From NCBI RefSeq assembly GCF_014251555.1, contig NZ_CP059190.1, forward strand, positions 571,308 to 635,307: a stretch of 64,000 nt of DNA, read 5' to 3'. Within the stretch, counting starts at the first letter, position 1, and each line of letters opens with the position of its first letter. A program made the position numbers and the translations under genes. Under the pieces are notes generated by a model. It did not search any database, had not been told where the DNA came from, and worked only from the letters and a program-made list of their open reading frames with translations. Below, piece by piece: positions 36,271-39,592 of the stretch. Source of the DNA: Blattabacterium cuenoti. GTDB lineage: Bacteria; Bacteroidota; Bacteroidia; Flavobacteriales; Blattabacteriaceae.

Positions 36271-36741
36271 ATGTATTTCTTTGTTTCTAGTCATTCTCTA
36301 TTACAAAAATTACATACTTTATATCAAATTGTAAATTCTCATAACTCAAGTTCAAGATATTTTATTTTTGAAATCATAGAAAATCAATTAAAAATTATTG
36401 CTTTATGTGATTCTGAAAATGTAGTGAACACATCTATCAAGGTTAATGTAAAAAAATATACAAAAGAAAAAGTAGTTGTATCCACCAAGTTCATGATAGA
36501 TATTTTGACCACATTTCCGAATGAAACACTTTTTTTTAAGAAAAAAAAAAATGTACTTAATATTTTTTCTGAACAAGGATCTTATAAAATACCTATCTTT
36601 TTTCATAAAGATTCAATTTATTTTTTTAATAAAAAAAAAAAAATGTACTTAATATTTTTTCTGAACAAGGATCTTATAAAATACCTATCTTTTTTCATAA
36701 AGATTCAATTGATTTTTTTAAGAAAAAAAAATCCATATTGA
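36271..36741 (+). CDS. dnaN: DNA polymerase III sliding clamp, N-terminal fragment (frame broken)
   Basis: A 156-codon frame starting MYFFVSSHSLLQKL, matching the start of flavobacterial beta clamps (domain I; FMIDILTTFPNETLFF fits the LLDTLKTFP segment). The first 120 residues read as clamp; the last 36 are an out-of-frame translation of the second copy of a tandem duplication. The frame then ends at TGA 36739-36741, overlapping a TTG start of the downstream fragment. The intact clamp would be a homodimeric ring tethering the replicase, so it is expected to be essential. Without the duplication the two pieces would join into about 386 residues, close to normal clamp length. Confidence 0.88.
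   Translation: MYFFVSSHSLLQKLHTLYQIVNSHNSSSRYFIFEIIENQLKIIALCDSENVVNTSIKVNVKKYTKEKVVVSTKFMIDILTTFPNETLFFKKKKNVLNIFSEQGSYKIPIFFHKDSIYFFNKKKKMYLIFFLNKDLIKYLSFFIKIQLIFLRKKNPY
36541..36731 (+). repeat. tandem duplication inside dnaN with poly-A junction
   Basis: Positions 36541-36639 align with 36633-36731 at a 92 bp offset with only two mismatches (36619/36711 and 36630/36722); 78 consecutive bases are identical. Each boundary is a T7-8/AA/(G or T)/A-run block: A11 at 36541-36551, A13 at 36631-36643, A9 at 36723-36731. The distance between the first two T-run blocks is 90 bp, between the second and third 92 bp. So the copies differ by two A residues in the tract, and this shifts the reading frame. 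Confidence 0.95.
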
Positions 36742-37523
36742 GATCATCTACTATGAAAATAACTTTATTTTCAAATATTCTTTCAAAAATATTAAATCAA
36801 ACGTTATTCGCTGTTGGAGATAAAAAATTTCAAACAATACTGAATGGAGTTTTTTTTCAATTTTCTCCTAATGAAGCAAATTTTATAGCTACAGATACTT
36901 TTCGTCTTGTGAAGTATACTATCAAAAATTTGAAACTTGATAGATCTATTGAATTTACTATTCCAAAAAAATCTCTTGATATAATTAGAAAAATTTTAAA
37001 AAAGGAAAAAAATACCAATGTTGTTATTGAATATAACAATAAGATTAATATAGTATTTCATTTTCAAAATCATATTTTTTCATGTAGATTAATCAATGAA
37101 AAATATCCAGATTACAATTCTGTTATTCCTAATAATAATTGTGATGTTTCATTTGTTATCAATAGACTTTTATTATTAAATACCATCAGAAGAATTTCTT
37201 TTTTTTCTAAAAATAGAAAGAATTTTATCCACTTACACTTAAATCATAATAAATTGAAAATCTGTGAACAAAACACTATTAACAATGATAATTTTGAGTC
37301 TAAAATTAAATGTAAACCCATTTTTGATGATTTGAAAAAAACAGAAAGTATAAAAATGGGGTTCAACTCCAAATTTTTAATTGAGATTTTGTCTTCTTTA
37401 AATGAAAATTTTATTTGTTTCGAACTGTATCATTCAAATAAAATAGGTATTTTGAGACCCTTTTCTAATGAAAAGAAAAAAAAAGAAGAATCTATTTCTA
37501 TATTGATTATGTCCACAATATGA
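36738..37523 (+). CDS. dnaN: DNA polymerase III sliding clamp, C-terminal fragment
   Basis: A 261-residue frame carrying clamp domains II and III: LNQTLFAVGDKKFQTILNGVFFQF, TDTFRLVKYT, CRLINEKYPDYNSVIP and GFNSKFLIEILSSL all match flavobacterial DnaN. The frame opens upstream at 36633, so the second repeat copy is in frame with it; inside the fragment the first start codons are TTG 36738 and ATG 36753. The TTGA overlap with the upstream stop could allow coupled translation as a separate polypeptide. The stop overlaps pheT as ATGA. The C-terminal tail ends IMSTI. Confidence 0.88.
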   Translation: MRSSTMKITLFSNILSKILNQTLFAVGDKKFQTILNGVFFQFSPNEANFIATDTFRLVKYTIKNLKLDRSIEFTIPKKSLDIIRKILKKEKNTNVVIEYNNKINIVFHFQNHIFSCRLINEKYPDYNSVIPNNNCDVSFVINRLLLLNTIRRISFFSKNRKNFIHLHLNHNKLKICEQNTINNDNFESKIKCKPIFDDLKKTESIKMGFNSKFLIEILSSLNENFICFELYHSNKIGILRPFSNEKKKKEESISILIMSTI

Positions 37524-39592
37524 AAATATCATACAATTGGTTGAAAAAATATATATCTATTGATATTAATGCGGAAAAAGTATCTGTGATTTTGACTGAT
37601 ATTGGATTACCAGTAAAGAGTATAAAAAAAATAATATTGGATGAGGTAGAGGACTCTATTTTGGATGTGGAAGTAACTCCCAATCGTACGGATGCTATGA
37701 GCCATTATGGAATAGCACGTGATTTGTATGCTTTTTTAAAATTTCGGGGAGACACGGTTCATTTATCCAAACCTGTAATTATAAATGAAGAAACAAATCA
37801 TCATAATCATGTTCAAGTTTTTATACAAGAAAATATAAAATGTATCAGATATTCCGGAATGTCAATTTCTGAAATAAGAATAGAACCTTCACCCCATTGG
37901 TTAGTTTCTAGACTAAAATCTATAGGTATAAAATCGATCAACAATATAATGGATGTTATAAGTTTTGTGATGTATGAATTAGGGCAACCAATCCATGTTT
38001 TTGACATAGATCAAATAGAAGAAAAAAAAATTATAATAAAAAATGCAGAAAAAAATACGTATTTTCAATCTTCAGATCGCATTACACGAAAACTTGATGA
38101 AGAAGATTTAATCATCTGTGATGCAAAAAAACCATTATCTATAGCTGGAATTATTAATAGTATTCAGTCTAATCTACATGTAGATACTAAAAGAATTTTT
38201 CTTGGAAGTGCTTGTTTTAGTCCTGTTGTTATCCGTATAATTGGAAAAAAACACTTAATAAAAACAGAATCACAATATCTTTTTGAAAGAGGAATAGATC
38301 CTAATCAAACTGCATACGCTTTGCAAAGAACTGCTTTTCTTATAAAAAGCATAACAAAAAGAAAAACATATTTTCATATTACTGATGTTTATCCTAGTCC
38401 GATCTATCCTTCAATAATCAAACTCAGATATAATAAAATTAGAAATGTTCTAGGAAAAGAAATATCCAAAAATAAAATTAAAAAGATTTTATCATTATTA
38501 GAAATCGTAATTCATTCTGAAAATAACAAATATTTATTTGTGTGTGTTCCACTTTACAGAATAGATGTTAAAAGAGAAATCGATTTGATCGAAGAAATAT
38601 TGCGTATTTATGGCATCAATAAAATTAAAATATCTGATCGAGTCAAAATATCCCCACTTCCTAACTTCTTTTACAAAACAGAACATCAAATACAAAAAAT
38701 ACTTTTAGAACAATTAATTTGTTATGGATTTCAAGAAATTATTTCTTCCACTATGAGAAATGAAAATAAATATTCTACTTTACTCAATTCTTTTTTTAAT
38801 AGAGAAGAAATTAGGATTATTAATCCAATTAATCAAAATTATAAATTGATGCGTTCCAGTTTATTATTCGGTATGATAGATTGTATAGAATATAATTGTA
38901 ACAGAATCAATTATTATAATAATTCCAATATCAAATTTTTTGAAATAGGAAAAATATATTATAAGCAGAATGATAAATTTTTAGAAAAAACATATCTCGG
39001 AATTGTTATTTTACAACAAATAGAAAAAAAACATGTTGAATTTCAACCTTTTTTTTATTTAAAAGGAATTGTTGAACAAATTTTTCAAAAAAGCGGAATT
39101 AACAATTATACTCAAATATTTTCTAAACATCCTTTATTAGAAAATAGTATTTCTATGTTGTATAACAATAAAAATCTAGTTGAACTAGGAAAATTAAAAA
39201 ACAATATTTTGAAAAAAAAAGAGATTGTCTATGCAGAAATTGATTGGGAATATTTGATTTCTATTATTCAAGAAAAAAAAATAACTTATGTTCCGTTTTC
39301 TAAATATCCTACTTCAAGAAGAGATTTATCTTTATTAATTGATAATACTATTTCTTTTGAAAAGATCAATCAGTTAATAAGAAAAAAAGAAAATCATGTG
39401 ATCAAGAAAATTCAAATATATGATTTTTATGAAGGAGAAAATTTGCCAAAATCAAAAAAATCCTATACTGTTAGTTTCTTTTTTGAAAGTCAAAAAGAAA
39501 CATTGACTGACAAAATTATTAAGAATTCCATGAAAGAAATTGAATTTTTCTTAAAAAAAGAATTGAAAGCTGAAATTAGAGAAAAAAAATAG
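37520..39592 (+). CDS. pheT: phenylalanyl-tRNA synthetase beta chain lacking the OB-fold tRNA-binding domain
   Basis: A 690-residue beta subunit of the (alpha-beta)2 synthetase. The start MKISYNWLKKYISID and the DVEVTPNRTDAMSHYGIARDL segment are typical, but they are separated by only about 40 residues instead of about 150. The missing stretch is the EMAPII-like OB fold. The B3/B4 editing core (residues about 105-290), the B5 region, the catalytic-like core and the C-terminal FDX-ACB domain (FSKYPTSRRDLSLLID to the end) are present. Full-length homologues are about 800 residues. It is translationally coupled to dnaN (4 bp overlap). pheS is not in the window. Confidence 0.95.
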   Translation: MKISYNWLKKYISIDINAEKVSVILTDIGLPVKSIKKIILDEVEDSILDVEVTPNRTDAMSHYGIARDLYAFLKFRGDTVHLSKPVIINEETNHHNHVQVFIQENIKCIRYSGMSISEIRIEPSPHWLVSRLKSIGIKSINNIMDVISFVMYELGQPIHVFDIDQIEEKKIIIKNAEKNTYFQSSDRITRKLDEEDLIICDAKKPLSIAGIINSIQSNLHVDTKRIFLGSACFSPVVIRIIGKKHLIKTESQYLFERGIDPNQTAYALQRTAFLIKSITKRKTYFHITDVYPSPIYPSIIKLRYNKIRNVLGKEISKNKIKKILSLLEIVIHSENNKYLFVCVPLYRIDVKREIDLIEEILRIYGINKIKISDRVKISPLPNFFYKTEHQIQKILLEQLICYGFQEIISSTMRNENKYSTLLNSFFNREEIRIINPINQNYKLMRSSLLFGMIDCIEYNCNRINYYNNSNIKFFEIGKIYYKQNDKFLEKTYLGIVILQQIEKKHVEFQPFFYLKGIVEQIFQKSGINNYTQIFSKHPLLENSISMLYNNKNLVELGKLKNNILKKKEIVYAEIDWEYLISIIQEKKITYVPFSKYPTSRRDLSLLIDNTISFEKINQLIRKKENHVIKKIQIYDFYEGENLPKSKKSYTVSFFFESQKETLTDKIIKNSMKEIEFFLKKELKAEIREKK

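Follow-up and report, generated by a model that had tools for sequence, protein, structure and literature searches.

Does the split sliding-clamp gene (dnaN) of this Blattabacterium genome, here called G000, still serve its cell, or is it a gene on its way out? The locus lies within the window, by which we mean the whole stretch of 64,000 nucleotides that was analysed (positions 571308-635307 of G000:C1), in a genome assembled as a single contig of 638,736 bp. The case catches the gene for the replicative clamp on, or close to, the threshold where loss becomes possible, in a genus where 8/49 genomes are already without dnaN. Nature here provides a way to ask whether slippage on an A-run prolongs the life of an essential gene or only opens its decay. 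Poly-A frameshifts in symbiont replication genes have already been published, as has a dnaN pseudogene in Blattabacterium, and what is unusual here is the origin of the lesion in a duplication. On balance, we lean towards the reading that G000 dnaN is a selected clamp gene that would now depend on slippage at an A-run for its full-length product.

Two reading frames and a tandem duplication

dnaN is not one continuous reading frame. It is divided between two frames that are otherwise intact except for a single break, and every coordinate that the initial annotation gave for the gene holds. The split that it described stands, with the downstream frame open from 36633, but the upstream frame encodes 156 residues and not 120, residues 121-156 being off-frame. 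The features of the locus are the following.

36271..36741, + strand: 5' frame of dnaN, from ATG 36271 to TGA 36739-36741 (156 codons); residues 1-120 are clamp (the complete domain I, closing with repeat copy 1), followed by 36 off-frame residues and the TGA
36530..36551, + strand: left block, T8-AAG-A11, with the A11 at 36541-36551; in frame
36541..36630, + strand: repeat copy 1 (30 codons), covering the final strands of domain I and the first part of the linker, from the profile alignment to the solved clamp 8dt6
36621..36643, + strand: junction block, T7-AAT-A13, with the A13 at 36631-36643; frame break and proposed slippage site, where a -1 switch is required
36633..37523, + strand: 3' frame of dnaN, 296 aa; repeat copy 2, linker, domains II and III
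36644..36722, + strand: repeat copy 2, non-tract part; two bases differ from copy 1
36713..36731, + strand: right block, T7-AAG-A9, with the A9 at 36723-36731; second, weaker possible slippage site
36738..37523, + strand: longest 3' ORF with a start of its own (TTG 36738, with an ATG at 36753); domains II-III alone
37520..39592, + strand: pheT, the gene that follows, sharing bases with the stop of dnaN; used as anchor for the sites without dnaN in relatives

The downstream frame opens directly after the TAA at 36630-36632, and the probability of its 296 codons staying open by chance is about 4e-12. The two frames are simultaneously open solely across 36633-36738, an overlap that holds most of the A13 tract and also the A9 of the right block. 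At its end, TTG 36738 and the upstream TGA at 36739 overlap as TTGA, as had been described. No second dnaN was found in the one-contig assembly, so that the split gene is the sole clamp gene, and it is not a pseudogene by virtue of an intact copy elsewhere, a possibility that the initial annotation had raised.

All three clamp domains are present, and the dnaN alignment of the genus matches a solved clamp end to end in a profile comparison (E 2.5e-68). The downstream frame passes the Pfam cut-off for both DNA_pol3_beta_2 (E 1e-18) and DNA_pol3_beta_3 (E 6e-13), and DNA_pol3_beta falls just below it on residues 1-109 (E 8e-4, 20.1 bits against a cut-off of 24.4). Pfam, together with the profile match to solved clamps, maps the repeat unit to the final strands of domain I and the beginning of the domain I/II linker.

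The frame overlap is accounted for by a 92-bp tandem duplication whose junction is the A13 tract. Comparison of 36541-36639 with 36633-36731 gives two mismatches, as first reported, at 36619/36711 (T/G) and 36630/36722 (T/G). Three T-run/AA(G/T)/A-run blocks punctuate the region at spacings of 90 and then 92 bp, again in agreement with the first description. The tandem-repeat score of dnaN is 367, far beyond chance, and nothing else in the window scores above 62. The A13 is also the longest A/T run of the window, followed by five runs of 11, of which dnaN itself has one.

History of the lesion and selection after the break

The three nearest relatives in the pheT tree, G029, G005 and G042 (dnaN identity 93, 89 and 87%), have an intact dnaN of normal length with a single copy of the unit, so the duplication is private to the G000 lineage. 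The comparison with related strains that the initial annotation had recommended thus places the duplication and split in none of the three nearest genomes, and the lesion in no other genome. Nor is a frameshift shared across several lineages: these sisters are intact, and the two other genomes with a poly-A frameshift in dnaN, G032 and G016, belong to other clades of the pheT tree. Related T/A blocks occur at both ends of the single unit in G029 and G005. Such single-copy relatives fit the history first proposed for the locus, in which an in-frame duplication between blocks was followed by drift of the tract.

The order of events can be partly read from the copies. A GCA to GTA change common to both predates the duplication, and the two differences between them postdate it. 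The duplication is therefore not brand new; judged by branch rates, its age would be about 10-25% of the branch, though the interval is wide. The frameshift may date from the same time or be much more recent.

Downstream of the break, domains II-III have a dN of 0.009 and a dS of 0.129 on the G000 branch, a ratio of 0.07 where the median for window genes is 0.165. Changes unique to G000 in these domains are 11 synonymous and 4 nonsynonymous, as against 4 and 20 in G005 (Fisher p 0.0007), and the difference from the G029 branch (7 synonymous, 7 nonsynonymous) is not significant. G000 has both the lowest dN/dS and the lowest nonsynonymous proportion of the three close branches. Using the lowest, and so most cautious, background ratio, neutral evolution could take up at most about 8% of the G000 branch. 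We found no further disabling change in G000 dnaN, whether stops, extra indels or raised dN/dS, and the clamp-loader gene dnaX of the same genome is intact (499 aa). The delta subunit (PF06144) was considered as a marker of an intact loader, and is uninformative as it is undetectable in 49/49 genomes. A mutator lineage arising through loss of mismatch repair was also considered and rejected, MutS and MutL being present and open in 49/49 genomes.

The evolution of domains II-III thus fits continued function, or else a break so young that it does not yet show in the substitutions: if the frameshift is far younger than the duplication, the low dN/dS would say nothing on present function. Judged from the sequence, what we see is a real, lineage-specific lesion in a sliding-clamp gene that is still under selection.

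Proposed slippage at the A13 tract and its precedents

According to the scenario that we favour, the ancestral gene had two T-run/AAG/A-run blocks at a distance of 90 bp, and either slippage or unequal recombination between them would have doubled a unit of 90 bp (30 codons) where domain I ends. Later drift of the junction A tract to a length of 13 would have shifted domains II-III out of frame. RNA polymerase would add an A at A13 in a fraction of transcripts, both the addition and its yield being what we infer; alternatively, the ribosome would slip back one base (-1) in A13, which leads to the same frame. Because both frames are open across the tract, either slip would yield a full-length clamp, with domain I linked to domains II-III and the hinge between domains I and II longer by 30 residues. 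Messages without a slip would give domain I plus a 36-residue wrong tail. The enlarged clamp presumably works.

The break does lie in an A/T run of at least nine with both frames open, and the A9 of the right block may provide another slippage site, as it too falls within 36633-36738, where neither frame is closed. Rescue by slippage, which the initial annotation had brought forward, is consistent with the strong purifying selection seen in domains II-III. A slippery A-run is likewise present for -1 ribosomal frameshifting, at a site that is not conserved. A stimulatory RNA structure after A13 was considered and is not convincing: the local fold has a z of -2.0, and 3/200 shuffles are as good. 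Counting against slippage are the occurrence of the lesion in no other genome and the dispensability of dnaN in eight relatives. Persistence across lineages is not a required feature, however, as the published slippage cases are not all shared between lineages.

Our reading of G000 dnaN, itself drawn from sequence data, leans on precedents in Citrobacter, in aphid and ant symbionts and in Blochmannia vafer. Bacterial RNA polymerase slippage is efficient on runs of at least nine As (PMC1088944, PMC5009743). At the A11 of Citrobacter tssM, As are added and the frame is restored at about 20% (PMC4256274), and corrected transcripts amount to 12-50% in aphid and ant symbionts, as quoted in PMC5009743. 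In Blochmannia vafer, dnaX and dnaG are frameshifted in poly-A, and the genes newly frameshifted in this symbiont evolve no faster (PMC3017870). The rescue of poly(A)-frameshifted genes by transcriptional slippage in Buchnera and Blochmannia is attributed to Tamas et al. (2008) in the citing passage of PMC3971599.

Like the Buchnera and Blochmannia cases, G000 dnaN is an essential-type gene of an AT-rich endosymbiont in which nothing but an indel in a long A-run causes the split, with frames otherwise intact and no relaxed evolution. It differs from them in that its run lies at a new tandem-duplication junction, its product would carry 30 extra residues, and the lesion is private to one genome. 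As in Citrobacter rodentium tssM1 (PMC4256274), the A-run is just upstream of a premature stop and added As would join the frames; however, both tssM1 products are needed, as shown experimentally, whereas any role for the short product of G000 dnaN would be hypothetical. A further likeness is with dnaX of Thermus thermophilus, where slippage on an A9 gives tau and gamma (PMC1088944), for both are replisome genes with a long A-run and two products, real or potential. The templated frame encodes the full-length protein in Thermus thermophilus dnaX, in contrast to the truncated one in G000 dnaN.

Competing explanations and the fate of dnaN in the genus

An unlikely, though serious, alternative is that the duplication is real and that many or all chromosomes in the living cells have a tract of in-frame length, A13 being either a consensus error or one allele of a mixed population. 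The tract is one A off an in-frame length, runs this long are difficult for short reads and unstable in replication, and G032 is likewise one A short at a homologous run. Moreover, an A117 run bordering Ns, probably an assembly gap edge, occurs elsewhere (L126, G000:C1 at about 463241); the assembly is thus imperfect, which counts against the slippage reading. On the other side, among 55 window genes compared with G029, dnaN is the only one that is frameshifted, and the few in-frame stops seen in window genes are at mis-set gene starts. With 0/54 other genes shifted, a generally frameshifted assembly is rejected for the window. The whole G000 genome has 22 matches to a 12-A run; besides dnaN, 11 coding A12-A14 tracts lie within one open frame, runs of 13 and 14 included, and the remaining matches are at gene ends, intergenic or beside Ns. 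Since these 11 tracts are in frame and no other window gene is shifted, miscalled runs are not rampant in G000. The substitutions between its copies, which an assembler would not invent, argue that the duplication itself is no assembly product. As a separate observation on run content, the whole genome of G032 has 86 matches to a run of at least 12 As; the five further genomes searched have 13-24.

Early decay of the gene, with the G000 lineage in the course of losing its clamp and the A13 frameshift as the initial inactivating event on the way to a pseudogene, also strikes us as improbable, and has to be weighed against the record of dnaN in the genus. The initial annotation took dnaN to be essential and simple loss to be unlikely for that reason. 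This argument fails, and early decay is a real rival, because dnaN is missing or broken in other Blattabacterium and lost in Portiera. Domain/family, protein and profile searches did not detect it in the following genomes.

Loci L067-L073 and L075, genomes G009, G030, G011, G038, G023, G039, G010 and G015: sites without dnaN

In all eight, tRNA-Met is directly followed by pheT at the syntenic site, and their genomes are among the smallest in the genus (511-595 kb). The frameshift in G032 is in an A12 run whose homologue in G000 is that of the left block, and the one in G016 is in an A11. A count of independent dnaN losses on the pheT tree was dropped, as the tree is poorly resolved with long branches. 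The available text of PMC6039017 lists dnaN as a pseudogene in the Blattabacterium of Periplaneta japonica, the same gene annotated as broken in the same genus, and that text reports no duplication there, in contrast to G000 dnaN. In Portiera, dnaN, dnaX, holA and holB were lost on one branch (PMC5322561). Against decay in G000 itself stand the absence of a second lesion, the lowest dN/dS of the three close branches after the break, the intact dnaX, and the intact dnaN retained by all near relatives, because of which decay would need to be very recent. A further tandem repeat is seen in the dnaN of G003 (L034), where about 8 residues (DFIINKNY) are repeated in frame in several copies.

We find it quite doubtful that the cell combines a ring with the 30-residue hinge repeat, made only by slippage, with a useful truncated domain I, or that it has a clamp of separate chains (domain I; domains II-III). 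Least probable by far is a two-piece clamp in which the second piece is made by reinitiation at TTG 36738 or ATG 36753 and the ring assembles from both: the first ORF does hold a complete domain I and the second starts at the domain I/II linker, an anatomically neater split than initially noted, but the first carries a 36-residue off-frame tail, TTG 36738 is not a new start because it is an ordinary internal codon in relatives, and nothing positive speaks for it. We know of no split bacterial clamp.

The clamp-loader gene dnaX has a long A-run of its own in one Blattabacterium clade, A10-A16 at one site near residue 366-371, which resembles the slippage site of Thermus dnaX that makes tau and gamma. 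Three genomes (G022, G048 and G004) have it as an out-of-frame A11, and seven others as an A10, A11 or A16 in frame. The runs are located as follows.

L084, 1202-1212: dnaX A-run
L085, 1188-1198, reverse strand: dnaX A-run
L086, 1208-1218: dnaX A-run
L087, L090-L093, L096 and L097: further loci with the dnaX run

dnaX is broken in G009 and G038, and was not detected in G025 and G030, although G025 has an intact dnaN. In the dnaX of G017 (L093), a tandem repeat of about 13 residues (NEKSFLIEEEKK and similar) follows IEIYIIQLAYLF and adjoins the A-run, and is similar in kind to the duplication in dnaN.
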